Origin: Alphaproteobacteria bacterium
GTDB lineage: Bacteria > Pseudomonadota > Alphaproteobacteria > Micavibrionales > Micavibrionaceae
DNA: 64,000 nucleotides
NCBI GenBank assembly: GCA_028289285.1
Contig: JANQRF010000002.1
Span: 806,001-870,000, forward strand
Direction of reading: 5' to 3'
A model generated the notes under the pieces. That model had not been told where the DNA came from and did not search any database. It saw nothing but the letters and a program-made list of their open reading frames with translations. Positions 11,222 to 63,693 of this stretch are shown here, piece after piece (the stretch's first letter is position 1; every line of letters starts with the position of its first letter). Position numbers and translations under genes: made by a program.

Positions 11222-11296
11222 AGTTACAAGTTTCGAGTTACAAGTCGCAAGACTAGCCAGAATTTTCTTGCAACTTGCGTCTTTTAACTTGCAACT
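11222..11296. repeat. Heptad palindrome (AGTTGCA family), empty copy after carD
   Basis: The left arm (11222-11252) is four consecutive 7-mers, AGTTACA, AGTTTCG, AGTTACA, AGTCGCA, followed by AGA. The right arm (11266-11296) is TCT followed by four complementary 7-mers (TGCAACT, TGCGTCT, TTTAACT, TGCAACT). It starts two bases after the carD stop codon and has no gene inside. The same design recurs at 19705-19772 and around the gene at 30494-30889. Confidence 0.9.
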
Positions 11297-18130: not shown

Positions 18131-19706
18131 TTCTTTAAGTGACAAACTCGGCGGCATTTTCTCCGGCCTGACGGGCAAAGCCCGTTTGAGCGAGGAAGAC
18201 GTCAATGAGGCCGCCCGCGAGATCCGCGTGGCGCTGCTTGAGGCTGATGTCGCCCTGCCTGTTGTCAAAGACTTCATCGAAACCATCAAGGAAAAAGCCG
18301 TAGGTGCGGATATCACTAAATCCATCTCCCCCGGCCAGCAGGTCGTTAAAATCGTTCATGATGCGATGGTGGAGATGCTGGGCGCAGAAGCCAGTGACCT
18401 GCAATTTGTAACACCACCCAGCGCCTACTTGATGGTCGGTCTGCAAGGCTCCGGTAAAACCACCTCAACGGCCAAGATCGCGAAATTCCTCACCGACAAG
18501 CAGCGCAAGAAAGTTTTGATGGCCTCTCTTGATACGACGCGTCCTGCCGCGCAGGAACAACTTGCAACACTTGGAGAGCAAACAGGTGTCGACACATTAG
18601 AAATTATCAAAGGCCAGAGCCCGCTTGAGATCACGAAGCGCGCTTTAAAAGAAGCAAAACTCGGCGGCTATGACGTGGTGATGCTTGATACGGCAGGCCG
18701 CCTGTCGATTGACGAAGAATTGATGAATGAAGTCACGGCGATCCGCGATCTAGCAAAGCCCGTTGAAACGCTCCTCGTCGTCGATGCCATGACCGGGCAG
18801 GATGCGGTCCAAACCGCGACCGCCTTTAACGAAAAAGTCGGCATTACGGGCACGATGCTCACCCGCGTCGATGGCGATGCGCGCGGCGGGGCGGCGATGT
18901 CGATGCGCGCCGTCACGGGTAAGCCTATCAAGCTGATCGGTGTTGGGGAGAAATGGGATGCGATTGAACCGTTTCACCCGGAACGGATCGCAGGCCGTAT
19001 TTTGGGTATGGGCGATATTGTTTCTTTGGTTGAAAAGGCGAGTGAAACTATTGAGGCCGAAGAAGCGCAGGCCATGGCTGAAAAGCTCAAAAAAGGCCGC
19101 TTTGATTTTAACGATCTTCTGACACAAATGCGCCAAATGTCCAAGATGGGCGGCATGGGCGCGATGATGAACCTGCTCCCCGGCCTTGGCAAAATGGCGG
19201 GGCAGCTCGAAGCCGCGGGCATGAATGACGGGATGCTCAAAACGCAGGAAGCCATCATCCTGTCTATGACGCCTAAAGAACGCGAAAACCCGAAACTGAT
19301 GAATGCGTCTCGTAAAAAACGCATCGCGGCAGGGTCAGGCACAACCGCTCAGGACGTCAATAAACTCTGCAAACAACAATCAGACATGCAAACCGTCATG
19401 AAGCGCATCAAAAAAATGGGCATGGGCAATATGATGGGCATGATGAAAAACATGATGGGCGGCAAAGCCGATGAGCTTGACCTGATGGCCAAATCCATGG
19501 ACCCGGATGCACTCGGTAAAGATATGGACGCGCTTCAAAGCGCGGAGCCCAATCTCGGCCCGAACCCATTCGCCGCGCCGGGCGGCATGCCTGCCGGTTT
19601 AGGTGGCCCTGCCCTGCCCGGTATGGGTATGCCGGGGATGGGCCTGCCCACACGCGGCGGCACAAAAAAGAATAGAAAGAAAAACAAGAAAGGAAAACGC
19701 AAATAG
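18123..19706 (+). CDS. ffh: Signal recognition particle protein Ffh
   Basis: The SRP54 GTPase that binds signal sequences and 4.5S RNA and targets nascent membrane proteins to FtsY. The 527-residue protein has the N domain, a G domain (P-loop 'GLQGSGKTTSTAKIA', 'DTAGRLSIDEELM', 'TRVDGDARGGAA') and a Met-rich M domain ('MGGMGAMMNLLPGLGKMAG', 'MKRIKKMGMGNMMGMM'). The C-terminal tail is Gly/Met/Pro-rich and ends in a Lys/Arg-rich tract. First gene of the ffh-rpsP-rimM-trmD-rplS block. Its TAG stop codon shares two bases with the following heptad repeat. Confidence 0.97.
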   Translation: MFSSLSDKLGGIFSGLTGKARLSEEDVNEAAREIRVALLEADVALPVVKDFIETIKEKAVGADITKSISPGQQVVKIVHDAMVEMLGAEASDLQFVTPPSAYLMVGLQGSGKTTSTAKIAKFLTDKQRKKVLMASLDTTRPAAQEQLATLGEQTGVDTLEIIKGQSPLEITKRALKEAKLGGYDVVMLDTAGRLSIDEELMNEVTAIRDLAKPVETLLVVDAMTGQDAVQTATAFNEKVGITGTMLTRVDGDARGGAAMSMRAVTGKPIKLIGVGEKWDAIEPFHPERIAGRILGMGDIVSLVEKASETIEAEEAQAMAEKLKKGRFDFNDLLTQMRQMSKMGGMGAMMNLLPGLGKMAGQLEAAGMNDGMLKTQEAIILSMTPKERENPKLMNASRKKRIAAGSGTTAQDVNKLCKQQSDMQTVMKRIKKMGMGNMMGMMKNMMGGKADELDLMAKSMDPDALGKDMDALQSAEPNLGPNPFAAPGGMPAGLGGPALPGMGMPGMGLPTRGGTKKNRKKNKKGKRK

Positions 19707-19772
19707 TTGCAAGCTAGTAGTTACAAGTTGCAAGAAAGCCATCTTGAAACTTGTAACCTGTAACTTGTAACT
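19705..19772. repeat. Heptad palindrome (AGTTGCA family), empty copy between ffh and rpsP
   Basis: The left arm (19705-19735) is AGTTGCA, AGCTAGT, AGTTACA, AGTTGCA then AGA. The right arm (19742-19772) is TCT then TGAAACT, TGTAACC, TGTAACT, TGTAACT. The first two bases of the left arm complete the ffh stop codon. The loop is only 6 bases. No gene inside; the rpsP ribosome binding site follows 10-15 bases later. Confidence 0.92.
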
Positions 19773-20302: not shown

Positions 20303-20313
20303 TCACATTCTTT

Positions 20314-20370
20314 CCCTCTCTCTATGGGAGAGGGAGGGGCCCGCGCCATAGGCGCGGGAGGGTGAGGGGT
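20314..20370. repeat. CCCTC/GAGGG palindromic repeat, left block
   Basis: Contains the hairpins CCCTCTC...GAGAGGG and CCCGCGCC-ATA-GGCGCGGG, ending AGGGTGAGGGG. The last segment lies 4 to 10 bases before the DUF559 ATG and can act as its ribosome binding site. Confidence 0.85.
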
Positions 20371-20374
20371 AAAC

Positions 20375-20815
20375 ATGCCCGACCAAAGAGCGCGTGATTT
20401 AAGGAAACACCAGACGGAAGCTGAAAAGCTTCTCTGGTCGCGCATGCGCAACCGTCAACTTGGCGGGTTTAAATTCAGACGGCAGCATCCAGTTCCGCCT
20501 TATATTCTCGATTTTTATAATGAAGAATACAAAATTGCTATTGAACTTGATGGCGATACGCATGGTCATGAGAAACAAATAAAGAAGGATAAAGAACGCA
20601 CAACGTTTCTAGCAAAACAAGGTATCTCCGTTATTCGGTTTTGGAACAATGAGGTATTTCAAAATCTGGAAGGGGTTTTGGAAACGATTTTAAATCACAT
20701 CGAATACCCCTCACCCACTTCGCTAACGCCGCTACGCGGCGAAGCTCCGTTGCCCTCTCCCCCCCGGGAGAGGGAGGGGCCCGGCGAAGTCCGAAGGACG
20801 AAGACGGGAGGGTGA
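20375..20815 (+). CDS. DUF559 (Vsr-like endonuclease fold) protein
   Basis: A 146-residue protein whose first 105 or so residues match DUF559: 'RARDLRKHQTEAEKLLWSRM', 'GFKFRRQHPVPPYILDFYNE' and 'IAIELDGDTHG'. The D...ELD pattern is the restriction-endonuclease/Vsr-like core, so nucleic-acid cleavage is plausible but unproven for the family. The last 35 or so residues (after 'NHIEYPS') are translated from the downstream repeat, and the stop TGA lies within GGGTGAGGGG. It is not part of the normal rpsP-rimM operon and appears to be cargo of the flanking repeats. Confidence 0.85.
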   Translation: MPDQRARDLRKHQTEAEKLLWSRMRNRQLGGFKFRRQHPVPPYILDFYNEEYKIAIELDGDTHGHEKQIKKDKERTTFLAKQGISVIRFWNNEVFQNLEGVLETILNHIEYPSPTSLTPLRGEAPLPSPPREREGPGEVRRTKTGG

Positions 20816-20819
20816 GGGG
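20705..20819. repeat. CCCTC/GAGGG palindromic repeat, right block
   Basis: It begins CCCCTCACCC and ends GGGTGAGGGG, exact complements, with internal stems including CCCTCTCCC/GGGAGAGGG. The segment 20717-20758 is closely similar, in reverse complement, to 23568-23600 inside trmD (shared words GGGAGAGGGCAACG and TAGCG). It supplies the purine-rich sequence just before the rimM ATG. Confidence 0.88.
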
Positions 20820-23283: not shown

Positions 23284-24075
23284 ATGCACTTTAACCTTCT
23301 CACCCTTTTCCCGGAGATGTTTCCAGGCATGCTGGAACACTCTCTCGCAGGCAAGGCACTCACCCGCGGCGACTGGTCTTATGAGGCTGTGAATATCCGC
23401 GATTTTGCGACCGATACGCACAAGACCGTAGATGATACGCCTTATGGCGGCGGGGCCGGGATGGTCATGCGCGCCGATGTGGTTGAACGGGCTTTATTAT
23501 CCATTCAATCACCCTCTCCCAGCCCGCTCACACGGGGCTCCTCCCTCTCCCTTCAGGGAGAGGGCAACGAAGCTTCGGCGCATAGCGCCGCTAGCGCAGT
23601 GGGAGGGGGATTTGGCCGGCTCATATATTTATCTCCGCGCGGCAAACCGCTGACCCAAAATCTGGTCAAAGAGCTTGCTGCTGCGCCTGCCCTTACCCTT
23701 TTGTGCGGGCGCTATGAAGGGGTCGACCAGCGTATTCTGGACGCTTATGACTTCGAAGAAATCTCAGTCGGTGATTATGTGCTCTCCGGTGGAGAGCCCG
23801 CTTCCCTTATTCTCATGGATTCCGTCATCCGGCTTTTGCCCGGTGTGATGGGCAATGAGGCCACGCCCGATAATGAAAGCTTTGGATCAGCTACAGGCGG
23901 CATGCTTGAATATCCGCATTACACCCGCCCTACCAGCTGGACCGCCGCCAATGGTCAAACCTATGAGGTTCCGGATATCCTGAAAGAAGGCCATCACGCC
24001 AAAATCGAGGCGTGGCGCAAAGAGCAGTCTGAAAAAATTACCCGCGCACGGCGACCTGATTTACTAAAAAATTAA
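23284..24075 (+). CDS. trmD: tRNA (guanine-37-N1)-methyltransferase TrmD with an in-frame repeat insertion
   Basis: TrmD methylates G37 of tRNAs with a 3' purine at 36, using SAM bound in a trefoil knot. Family segments are intact: '[20 protein letters not shown]', '[17 protein letters not shown]', '[15 protein letters not shown]', '[13 protein letters not shown]' and '[14 protein letters not shown]'. Between residues 75 and 111 there are about 35 extra residues (rich in Ser, Pro, Gly, Ala) translated from a palindromic repeat of the DUF559-associated family. The site corresponds to a surface loop in the linear order of motifs. The frame is kept, so the protein is probably functional. Confidence 0.93.
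23511..23610. repeat. CCCTC/GAGGG palindromic repeat inside the trmD coding sequence
   Basis: Contains CCCTCTCCC (23512-23520), an inner CCCTCTCCC-TTCA-GGGAGAGGG hairpin (about 23543-23564), then CAACGAAGCTTCGGCG...TAGCGCCGCTAGCG and AGTGGGAGGGG. The order is the reverse complement of the right block of the DUF559 element. It stays open in the trmD frame. Confidence 0.88.
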
Positions 24076-24101
24076 CCTCTGCCGCGAAGCGGCCATATCC
24101 A

Positions 24102-24184
24102 TTTCACGCAAAGACGCAAAGAACGCTAAAAAATTTAGAGTATTTGGCGAAATCTCTTTGCGGCCTTAGCGTCTTTGCGTGAAA
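24102..24184. repeat. Octamer palindrome (ACGCAAAG family), empty copy between trmD and rplS
   Basis: The left arm reads TTTC-ACGCAAAG-ACGCAAAG-AACGCTAAA. The right arm in reverse complement reads TTTC-ACGCAAAG-ACGCTAAG-GCCGCAAAG. A loop of about 20 bases lies between. The same arms frame the GxxExxY gene at 62853-63327. Apart from a direct repeat CTGCCAGCGGCGCT (about 24191 and 24292), the rest of this 280-base gap shows nothing identifiable. Confidence 0.9.
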
Positions 24185-29876: not shown

Positions 29877-30485
29877 ATGCAGAAATTCACGACACATAGT
29901 GGGATTGCCGCCCCTTTGCGAATGATGAATGTCGATACGGATATCATCATCCCCAAGCAGTTCCTGCGCACGATTAAGCGTACAGGCCTTGGTGTCCACG
30001 CCTTTAACGATATCCGCTACAATGAAGACGGATCGGATAAAGAGGATTTTGTCCTTAATAAAGAGCCGTACCGGCAGGCCTCGATCCTGATTACAGGGGA
30101 GAATTTCGGCTGCGGCTCAAGCCGTGAACATGCCCCCTGGGCACTGGCCGATATGGGTATAAGAGTGGTTATCGCGCCAAGCTTTGCCGATATCTTTTTT
30201 AATAACAGTTTTAAAAACGGGATGCTGCCGATTGCTCTGCCGCAGGAACAGGTCGATCAGCTAATGAACGAAGCAGAAGAGAACCCGGGCACGCCAATAG
30301 AGATTGATCTGGAAAAACAAACCATCACGCGGGGCAATAAATTTTCTTTTCCTTTCGAGATTGACCCGTTCCGAAAACATTGTTTGCTGAACGGTCTGGA
30401 TGATATTGGTCTGACACTTCAAAAGGGTAAAGAGATTTCCACGTTTGAAGATCAGGATAAACAAAAACGAAGCTGGCTGTATTGA
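29877..30485 (+). CDS. leuD: 3-isopropylmalate dehydratase small subunit
   Basis: The 202-residue partner of LeuC: '[20 protein letters not shown]', then the swivel-domain motif '[17 protein letters not shown]'. Complete and of standard length. Its TGA stop codon (30483-30485) shares its last base with the first heptamer of the palindromic repeat that carries the four-helix-bundle gene. Confidence 0.96.
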
Positions 30486-30922
30486 GTTGCAAGATGCAAG
30501 TTGCAAGTTACAAGAATATAAAAAGTAAACAGCAGAATCATCGCGATTTGATGATTTATCAAAGGGCCTATAAAGCATCTTTAGAAATTTACAAAGCCTC
30601 CAAAACTTTCCCCAAAGAAGAACGCTTTGCAATAACAGACCAAATAAGGCGCGCCTCCAGCAGTATATGCGCTAATATTGCTGAAGGATATGGAAGACAG
30701 CTTTCATCAAATAATGACTTTAAACGCTTTCTTATCATCGCCAAAGGATCATGCCATGAAATGTCTGTATGGATAGATTATTGCAAAGATCTCGGCTTCA
30801 TTAATGAACAAACATGGAAAAAATGGAATGACGAATATGTCGAAATTTCTAAAATGATTTATGGATTTATTCAAACCCTGAAGGATTAAACTCTTGCAAC
30901 TTGAAACTCGCAACTTGAAACT
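30485..30922 (+). mobile_element. Heptad inverted-repeat element carrying a four-helix-bundle gene between leuD and leuB
   Basis: The left arm (30485-30515) is AGTTGCA, AGATGCA, AGTTGCA, AGTTACA, then AGA. The right arm (30892-30922) is TCT, then TGCAACT, TGAAACT, CGCAACT, TGAAACT. The arms have the same design as the empty copies after carD and ffh. One gene fills the space between. The element starts at the leuD stop and ends within the leuB coding region. Mobility is inferred; no transposase present. Confidence 0.75.
30494..30889 (+). CDS. Four-helix-bundle (S23/IVS-like) protein
   Basis: A 131-residue protein of the four-helix-bundle family first described from 23S rRNA intervening sequences. 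Core: '[20 protein letters not shown]', '[20 protein letters not shown]', 'NIAEGYGRQ', '[20 protein letters not shown]'. The ATG at 30494 lies in the second heptamer (AGATGCA) of the left repeat arm, so the first few residues are repeat-encoded. The TAA stop is 2 bases before the right arm. Function unknown in general; related folds include the Avd protein of diversity-generating retroelements. Foreign to the leuD-leuB operon. Confidence 0.85.
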
Positions 30923-32012
30923 AACCTTACTGCCCGGGGACGGGATTGGCCCGGAAGTTATGACTGAAGTCAAAAAAGTCATTGGCTTTTTGGAAGATAA
31001 ATCCAGCCTGTCTTTTGACTTACACGAAGATGATATTGGCGGCGCGGCTTATGACCGCTACGGCCAGCCTTTGGCTGATCAAACGCTGGATACATGCCGG
31101 GCGAGCGATGCGATTATTATAGGCGCCGTCGGTGGATCAAAATGGGATGGGGTGGATTATAATCTCCGCCCCGAAGCAGGTCTTTTGAGGTTGCGTAAGG
31201 AACTCGACCTGTTTGCCAATTTACGTCCGGCGATTGTGTTTGATGCACTGGTCGATGCCTCTACGCTGAAACCCGAAATCGTCAAAGGGCTGGATATTTT
31301 AATTGTGCGGGAACTGACAGGCGGGGTGTATTTCGGGGAGCCGCGCGGAATTGAAGATTTAGGGAACGGGGAAAAGCGCGGCGTGAATACGCAGGTTTAT
31401 ACTTCTTCTGAAATTCAACGCATTGGCCGCGTGGCGTTTGATCTGGCAAAAAAACGCGGCAATCATGTGACCTCCTGTGAAAAAGCCAATGTCATGGAAA
31501 GCGGCAAGCTCTGGCGTGAGGAAATCACAATGCTGCACGGAAAAGACTTTGCGGATGTAAAACTGGATCACATGTATGCGGATAATTGCGCGATGCAGCT
31601 CCTGCGCAATCCATCGCAGTTTGATGTGATTGTGACGGATAATTTATTCGGTGATATTCTCTCTGATGAGGCCGCGATGCTGACCGGCTCTTTGGGGATG
31701 CTGCCATCCGCCTCATTGGGCGCCCCGGGGGTACCGGGCCTGTATGAGCCTGTCCACGGCTCTGCGCCCGACATTGCAGGCCAAGGCAAAGCCAACCCGC
31801 TGGCGACAATTTTGAGTTTTGCGATGGCCCTGCGCTATTCTTTGAATGAAGGGGCTGCCGCAGATATGATTGAAAGCGCCGTGCAGGATGTGTTGAATGC
31901 AGGTATTCGCACAGCCGACATTATGGCCGAGGGCTGCACCGAAGTCAGTACGAGCGCAATGGGCGATGCGCTGATTGCCCAAATGGATAAGACGTTACAG
32001 AAAGCCGCATAA
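30894..32012 (+). CDS. leuB: 3-isopropylmalate dehydrogenase with a repeat-derived N-terminus
   Basis: Oxidatively decarboxylates 3-isopropylmalate with NAD+. The 372-residue protein shows '[14 protein letters not shown]', 'GAVGGSKWD', '[14 protein letters not shown]' and '[20 protein letters not shown]'. No ATG lies near the family start. TTG 30894 has AAGGA (30881-30885) 8 bases upstream. This gives a protein starting [11 protein letters not shown], whose first eight or so residues are encoded by the right repeat arm. A second TTG at 30915 would give the family-like [10 protein letters not shown] but lacks a good ribosome binding site. Confidence 0.95.
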
Positions 32013-62852: not shown

Positions 62853-63327
62853 TTTCACGCTAAGACGCCAAGGCCGCAAAAGATTTGTTTTTAATATTTT
62901 CAGACATATAAAATCTCCTGATACCGTCTTTAATCAAAGATACGTTAAAATTAATCAAAAGGCCTAAACTGATCCCTGCAAGCTTCATATAGGTCAGGGT
63001 TTGCGCCTCTTGAAGTTTTCCAATTTTTTCAATGCTTTTTAACTCAATTAAAACAGAATCATTAATGATCATATCTGCCCGAAAGGCTGTTTCTATTTTT
63101 CTGCTATTGAAAAATAAAGGAATTGGTTTTTGGGTTTCAACATGAAATCCCCTATGCCGCATTTCATCTGCAAGACAAACCTCATACACATTTTCTAATA
63201 AACCGGGTCCAAAAGCCTTATGAATTTGAAAACAGGCATCAACGACCTGCTTTGCAATTTCATTTTCTTCATTTGTCGGCTCTTTTAGCATATGGCTTCT
63301 TAGCGGTCTTTGCGTCTTTGCGTGAAA
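62853..63327 (-). mobile_element. Octamer inverted-repeat element carrying a GxxExxY gene between yajC and secD
   Basis: On the plus strand the left arm reads TTTC-ACGCTAAG-ACGCCAAG-GCCGCAAA (from 62853). The right arm in reverse complement reads TTTC-ACGCAAAG-ACGCAAAG-ACCGCTAAG (ending 63327). One gene lies between. The right arm touches the yajC stop codon (63328-63330) and the left arm ends 7 bases before the secD ATG. The same arms form an empty hairpin at 24102-24184. Mobility is inferred. Confidence 0.75.
62860..63291 (-). CDS. GxxExxY protein (PD-(D/E)XK-like core)
   Basis: A 143-residue protein of the GxxExxY family, named after 'GPGLLENVYEVCL'. 'FRADMIINDSVLIELKSIEK' has the D...ExK spacing of nuclease-like folds, so nucleic-acid processing is plausible but unproven. 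The last seven or so residues (SFAALAS) and the TAG stop are encoded by the repeat arm, and AAGAAG upstream of the ATG lies at the edge of the other arm. The gene interrupts the yajC-secD operon. Confidence 0.88.
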   Translation of the reverse strand: MLKEPTNEENEIAKQVVDACFQIHKAFGPGLLENVYEVCLADEMRHRGFHVETQKPIPLFFNSRKIETAFRADMIINDSVLIELKSIEKIGKLQEAQTLTYMKLAGISLGLLINFNVSLIKDGIRRFYMSENIKNKSFAALAS

Positions 63328-63693
63328 TTATTTTTTCTCTGCCAAGTTCTGGATTGTGCTTTTGAGCGCCGTGACTTTGACTTCACCAAGATCAACCTCG
63401 ACTTCATCTTTGTCACCGTCGATTTTGGAAATTTTGCCGATCAACCCACCAGAAGTCACAACCTTATCGCCCTTTTTAAGCGCGCCGATCATATCCTGAT
63501 GTTCTTTAAACCGCTTTTGTTGCGGACGGATGAGCAGCACATAAAACAGCACCACCAAAAGAACGATCAAACCCATATTCCAGGCAAAAGCACTGGCCGC
63601 ACTTGGGGGCTGCGCCACGGCGCCATCCGCCATCGGGGTTGGGACTTCGATTGTTGCTGTTGTTTCCTGCGCATAAGCGGTTGATATCACCAT
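63328..63693 (-). CDS. yajC: Preprotein translocase auxiliary subunit YajC
   Basis: A 121-residue single-pass inner-membrane protein: N-terminal region then membrane helix 'GLIVLLVVLFYVLLIRPQQK', and the family motif 'RPQQKRFKEHQDMIGALKKG'. The stop codon directly abuts the octamer repeat. Divergent from the DUF815 gene. Confidence 0.94.
   Translation of the reverse strand: MVISTAYAQETTATIEVPTPMADGAVAQPPSAASAFAWNMGLIVLLVVLFYVLLIRPQQKRFKEHQDMIGALKKGDKVVTSGGLIGKISKIDGDKDEVEVDLGEVKVTALKSTIQNLAEKK

Follow-up and report, generated by a model that had tools for sequence, protein, structure and literature searches.

An in-frame palindromic insert in trmD and its candidate link to DUF559 genes flanked by related palindromes

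Introduction

Why does an essential gene, for a tRNA methyltransferase, carry a palindromic repeat within its reading frame, and where might such a repeat have come from? The question is raised by trmD of a bacterium of the Micavibrionaceae (Alphaproteobacteria; assembly GCA_028289285.1, genome G000 below), in a 64,000-nucleotide stretch of contig JANQRF010000002.1 that is referred to here as the window. An earlier note, made from the sequence alone, had described the repeat, had related it to a block beside a neighbouring DUF559 gene and had compared it with the Rickettsia palindromic elements (RPEs), which are palindromes of about 100-150 bp lying in frame in conserved genes, in several genes per genome (Ogata et al. 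2000, 2002; PMC10969869, PMC3767692). In that work no mover has been described for the in-frame coding palindromes of Rickettsia (PMC10969869, PMC3767692).

Results

The insert keeps the trmD frame and folds beyond chance

The insert comprises 105 bp, or 35 codons, at a place where relatives have two residues, e.g. LLSIENPGRKIY (Table 1). The earlier figure of about 35 extra residues therefore stands, while the coordinates given with it, 23511-23610, were slightly too narrow compared with 23509-23613 from ortholog comparison. PF01746 matches the trmD product in two stretches, one on each side of the insert, and the TrmD motifs and the reading frame are undamaged, as had been claimed; in addition, the window TrmD matches 27 distinct PDB TrmD sequences. 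The best reading of these sequence comparisons is that the insert is tolerated in a loop of TrmD, and we infer that the insert-bearing protein is produced and functional.

Table 1. Features of the trmD insert and of the neighbouring DUF559 gene (positions in the window)
Feature	Position	Strand	Basis
trmD, tRNA guanine-N1 methyltransferase, 263 aa with insert	23284..24075	+	ORF; PF01746
In-frame palindromic insert in trmD, 35 codons	23509..23613	+	ortholog comparison; predicted folds
Insert terminal stem, left arm CCCTCTCCCA	23512..23521		pairs with 23600-23609 in predicted folds
Insert terminal stem, right arm TGGGAGGGGG	23600..23609		predicted fold
Insert core hairpin CCCTCTCCC-TTCA-GGGAGAGGG	23543..23564		exact pattern; equals triplex motif core, Holder et al. 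2015
Insert right module with own hairpin, common to DUF559 flank	23565..23599		alignment; predicted fold
DUF559 gene, Vsr/homing-type endonuclease fold	20375..20815	+	domain match; predicted structure
DUF559 gene, left flanking repeat: hairpin and GGGTGAGGGG facing gene	20313..20369		sequence, alignment
DUF559 gene, right flanking repeat, full element CCCCTCACCC...CCCTCTCCC-GGGAGAGGG...GGGTGAGGGG	20707..20819		inverted relative of trmD insert

The insert is predicted to form a cloverleaf, in which a 10-bp terminal stem encloses three hairpins. This folding exceeds chance both as single-stranded DNA (-29.8 kcal/mol, z -4.5) and as RNA (-60.1 kcal/mol, z -5.8), with none of 200 shuffles as stable in either case, and together with the open frame it bears out the description of a palindromic repeat in frame within trmD. 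Two further repeat families were seen in the window. The second, with TTTCACGCAAAGACGCAAAG / CTTTGCGTCTTTGCGTGAAA, lies at 24101-24184, 62853-62880 and 63297-63328 and includes one inverted pair directly 3' of trmD; the third, rich in AGTTGCAAG/CTTGCAACT, lies at 11222-11296, 19704-19772, 30485-30507 and 30892-30923.

The insert is lineage-specific

We searched 38 relatives for TrmD, of which 36 gave a match, one of them (G016) reading N over the insert site. The insert was present at the same site in two genomes only, G000 and G022; in the latter the right stem arm reads TGGGTGAGGG. The site is empty in G001, which belongs to the same genus as G000 and reads ALLSVPSGNRGRLIYMSPRG, and also in G011. 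A TrmD tree built without the inserts pairs G000 with G001 (95/91) and G022 with G011 (97/94). Since the sisters of both carriers are empty, insertion at this one site probably happened twice, as judged from the sequences, although a single gene tree also leaves room for one ancestral gain followed by losses, or for transfer.

Among 289 genomes of the class, 274 had TrmD, and the matches listed break at the insert site, apart from a handful that run through it. Three continuous matches were inspected (G089, G096 and G193) and have other, unrelated extra residues there, which indicates that the site tolerates length change. The same insert in a wide range of TrmD orthologs, which the earlier note had named as the sign of an ancient protein loop, was looked for and not found among these relatives and the listed class matches.

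The insert belongs to a family that includes the flanks of a DUF559 gene

The best non-self match of the trmD insert in its genome is the right flank of the DUF559 gene (79.7 bits, E 2.5e-16), with positions 20708-20782 aligning in inverted orientation to 23535-23609 at 83% identity over 75 nt, so that the reverse-complement relationship proposed earlier is confirmed. This gene sits between the rpsP and rimM ORFs, 2.8 kb upstream of the trmD insert, with one repeat per side, and the right repeat encodes its C-terminal ~36 codons. Terminal inverted repeats, a likeness to MITEs, are present in both copies, as the 10-bp stem of the trmD insert and as the CCCCTCACCC/GGGTGAGGGG ends of the DUF559 flank. 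The predicted structure of the DUF559 protein has a mean pLDDT of 82.5, with low confidence in the repeat-encoded C-terminal tail. Its nearest solved structures are 3HRL, the homing endonuclease I-Bth0305I (3r3p) and E. coli Vsr, and the model resembles I-Bth0305I and Vsr in fold.

A search of the 2.08 Mb of G000 for the core hairpin CCCTCTCCC-N-GGGAGAGGG gave 13 copies, as against 0 for a reversed control pattern. One copy is in trmD, two surround a DUF559 domain in priA and one is in the tail of the window DUF559 ORF, while the other nine appear intergenic from the loci read. The closest relative of the trmD insert elsewhere likewise lies in frame, within a MiaB/MtaB-type gene of G001 (82% over 101 nt).

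The proposed parallel with RPEs was upheld, since the insert is lineage-specific, palindromic and in frame. It is 105 bp long and folds as a cloverleaf, and family members lie in frame in conserved genes, here trmD (G000, G022) and the MiaB/MtaB-type gene (G001). The differences are that this family is found outside the taxa in which RPEs have been reported, that it has an associated nuclease gene and that most of its copies in this genome are intergenic. To our knowledge, the CCCTCTCCC-core family is a sequence family different from RPEs.

A second known repeat is closer in sequence. The triplex motif (TM, or TMECO) of Holder et al. 2015 is reported to be always intergenic in E. coli, and mobility genes were not found near it (PMC4666352). 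Its core, CCCTCTCCC-loop-GGGAGAGGG, is exact in the trmD insert, and the right DUF559 flank in priA of G000 is a short-spacer form of it. In TM, however, GGGTGAGGG is found nearby, about 3 nt after the hairpin, whereas the trmD copy has GGGAGGGGG after about 35 nt, in a spacer that holds a hairpin of its own; in the trmD copy of G022, GGGTGAGGG is retained after a long spacer. Moreover, unlike TM, copies described here occur in frame within genes and on the flanks of DUF559.

The palindrome flanks DUF559 across bacteria

Beyond the single neighbouring repeat of the earlier note, we found that the palindrome core flanks DUF559 in many phyla and that DUF559 also lies in frame in host genes. Eighty named DUF559 loci were examined, the best 80 among at least 591 pattern matches. 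As the alignment used for matching contained nested copies, this is not a random sample, and the nested fraction among the 80 is not representative. In an unbiased count of 9-mers, the strongest enrichment in the 300-bp flanks was that of CCCTCTCCC, at 50 of the 80 loci (4 for control segments from the same loci), and of CCCTCACCC, at 46 (3 for control segments). Counted by 250-bp side, the motif was present in 94/160 sides against 2/160 control segments (Fisher p 5e-34, for these best-match loci). The commonest motif orders mirror each other, with the hairpin followed by GGGTGAGGG on the left and CCCTCACCC followed by the hairpin on the right. The exact motif was absent at 28 of the 80 loci, some of which have variant G/C-rich hairpins.

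Among the 38 relatives, the motif was found in 8/10 with strong DUF559 matches vs 5/28 others; the p value of 9e-4 is only indicative because related genomes are not independent. Five of the 13 motif-bearing relatives had no detected DUF559, and G001 carries 56 hairpins and two DUF559 matches. Class-wide, DUF559 ORFs are mostly 112-200 aa long. In E. coli K-12 the DUF559 gene ycjD ends in CGGTCACCCTCTCCCTGA, with a published TM copy 168 bp beyond. No link of DUF559 with these repeats was found in those parts of the open-access literature on DUF559 that were available to us.

DUF559 is nested in frame inside host proteins

The priA frame of G000 runs unbroken out of the N-terminal domain, across a palindrome, DUF559 and a second palindrome, and on into LLDGVTGAGKTEVYF. 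Three PriA sites were distinguished. Site A has DUF559 in G003 and G001 and a short repeat-like insert in G015, and the G001 gene is split between contigs at this DUF559; site B has DUF559 in G000 and a repeat-only insert in G001; site C has a short repeat-like insert in G002. Host domains were also found on both sides of DUF559 in TrpF (G017) and, by Pfam and outside the bacterial family studied here, in ValS (L168, L184), MetH (L171), HrpA (L197), MetG (L201), Mfd (L187) and a BioA-type aminotransferase (L183). For HsdM, HsdS, IspE, an M14 peptidase, an MmeI-like enzyme and QueH, Pfam identified one side of DUF559, the other being assigned by reading. N-terminal fusions to MurA (G016) and SufS (G022 and G021) count for less, since DUF559 is not preceded by host sequence there. 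In several nested copies no ATG occurs from the insert start up to the nuclease domain, and the nuclease of those copies would therefore be made only within the host protein.

The same host site holds DUF559 in different taxa in MetG (L201, L186, L210), HsdM (L166, L209, L173) and HsdS (L216, L223). In Rickettsiales AM-377-L16, DUF559 is nested in both ValS (L184) and Mfd (L187), and tandem coding palindromes accompany the Mfd copy. In a poorly resolved tree of 63 DUF559 domains the two HsdS copies fall together, as do the PriA copies of G000 and G001, while the HsdM copies and the ValS copies are ungrouped. RecF of G392 was left aside as a nested case, as were several further long ORFs at class level, all being weak, high in GC and unverified.

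Homing endonucleases, some of them nested in inteins, likewise sit in frame in conserved proteins. DUF559 resembles them in being embedded in frame in conserved proteins and in its related fold (Vsr-like I-Bth0305I, 3r3p). It differs in having DNA palindromes at both ends, and no intein family was found among the Pfam matches (E <= 1e-5) of the nested proteins, so the intein reading was not supported; unlike an intein, the DUF559 insert apparently remains in the protein. A group I or group II intron was likewise not supported, with no Rfam match over threshold at ten loci, nor any in the window stretch at E <= 0.1. In REPIN-RAYT systems short palindromes are tied to one enzyme family, RAYT being an HUH/tyrosine enzyme. 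The link of palindromes to one enzyme family is shared, but the partner here is DUF559 and copies lie in frame in genes.

Evidence bearing on mobility

No target-site duplication and no exact empty-filled pair was found at the nucleotide level, the relatives being too diverged. A comparison of E. coli TM-repeat sites, which was not clean, gave partial variants only, with no target duplication seen. At one E. coli site, yjdP-phnP (L250, L252, L253, L254), strains have two, one or no motif hairpins.

Discussion

Based on these comparisons, we consider it fairly likely that the palindrome in trmD is a non-autonomous copy from a family of mobile elements, which in their full form consist of a DUF559 gene between inverted palindromes. 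The recurrent pairing suggests that DUF559 with its palindromes makes up a kind of mobile element that is widespread and, it appears, has not been described before. As a broader and more tentative proposal, which may or may not hold, DUF559 with inverted palindromes would be a pan-bacterial, non-splicing, in-frame homing-type element within and between genes, and palindromes without the nuclease would include both the orphan TM-type repeats and the trmD insert.

In such a scheme, DUF559 units and their nuclease-less derivatives would enter intergenic regions and, frame permitting, conserved genes. Cutting by the Vsr/homing-like DUF559 at or near the palindrome may drive the spread, via repair or recombination. 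Within genes, selection would presumably keep only open-frame copies in a tolerant loop or linker, and the surviving palindromes would end up as translated segments of the host protein. The trmD copy may derive from the DUF559-palindrome family, either through a local hop or through nuclease loss, and the flank of the neighbouring DUF559 gene is a possible local source.

In a variant of this explanation, possible but on the unlikely side, the trmD insert would be the scar of a DUF559 insertion whose nuclease was lost by recombination between the flanking palindromes, in the manner of a solo LTR. PriA offers suitable pairs: site B carries DUF559 in G000 and only a repeat in G001, and site A carries a short insert in G015 where G001 and G003 have DUF559. 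However, a resident palindrome that acquired DUF559 would explain this pattern equally well. In addition, no DUF559-bearing trmD was seen in the 36 relatives or among the matches listed from the 289 class genomes.

It is also conceivable, but in our judgement unlikely, that an RPE-like or MITE-like palindrome is moved by another enzyme and that DUF559 is a frequent passenger settling near palindromes. The five relatives with the motif but without detected DUF559 and the 56 hairpins of G001 beside two DUF559 matches are consistent with another mover, and no nuclease is described for RPEs in the cited work (PMC10969869). However, many palindromes and few DUF559 genes are also expected of a non-autonomous family, in many phyla DUF559 is flanked with a mirror symmetry that exceeds a loose preference, and palindrome and DUF559 are jointly inserted in frame. 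Finally, an ancient TrmD loop that drifted into repeat-like composition is hardly credible: the site does vary in length, with unrelated extra residues in G089 and G193, but the insert shares DNA identity with repeats outside trmD, folds as a palindrome and is missing from sister genomes.

Returning to the mobile-element reading, DUF559, repeatedly flanked by the palindrome, is a candidate mover for in-frame coding palindromes and for the widespread TM repeats. If this is true, DUF559 'fusions' with PriA, ValS, MetG or Mfd would be mobile-element insertions and not functional domain fusions.
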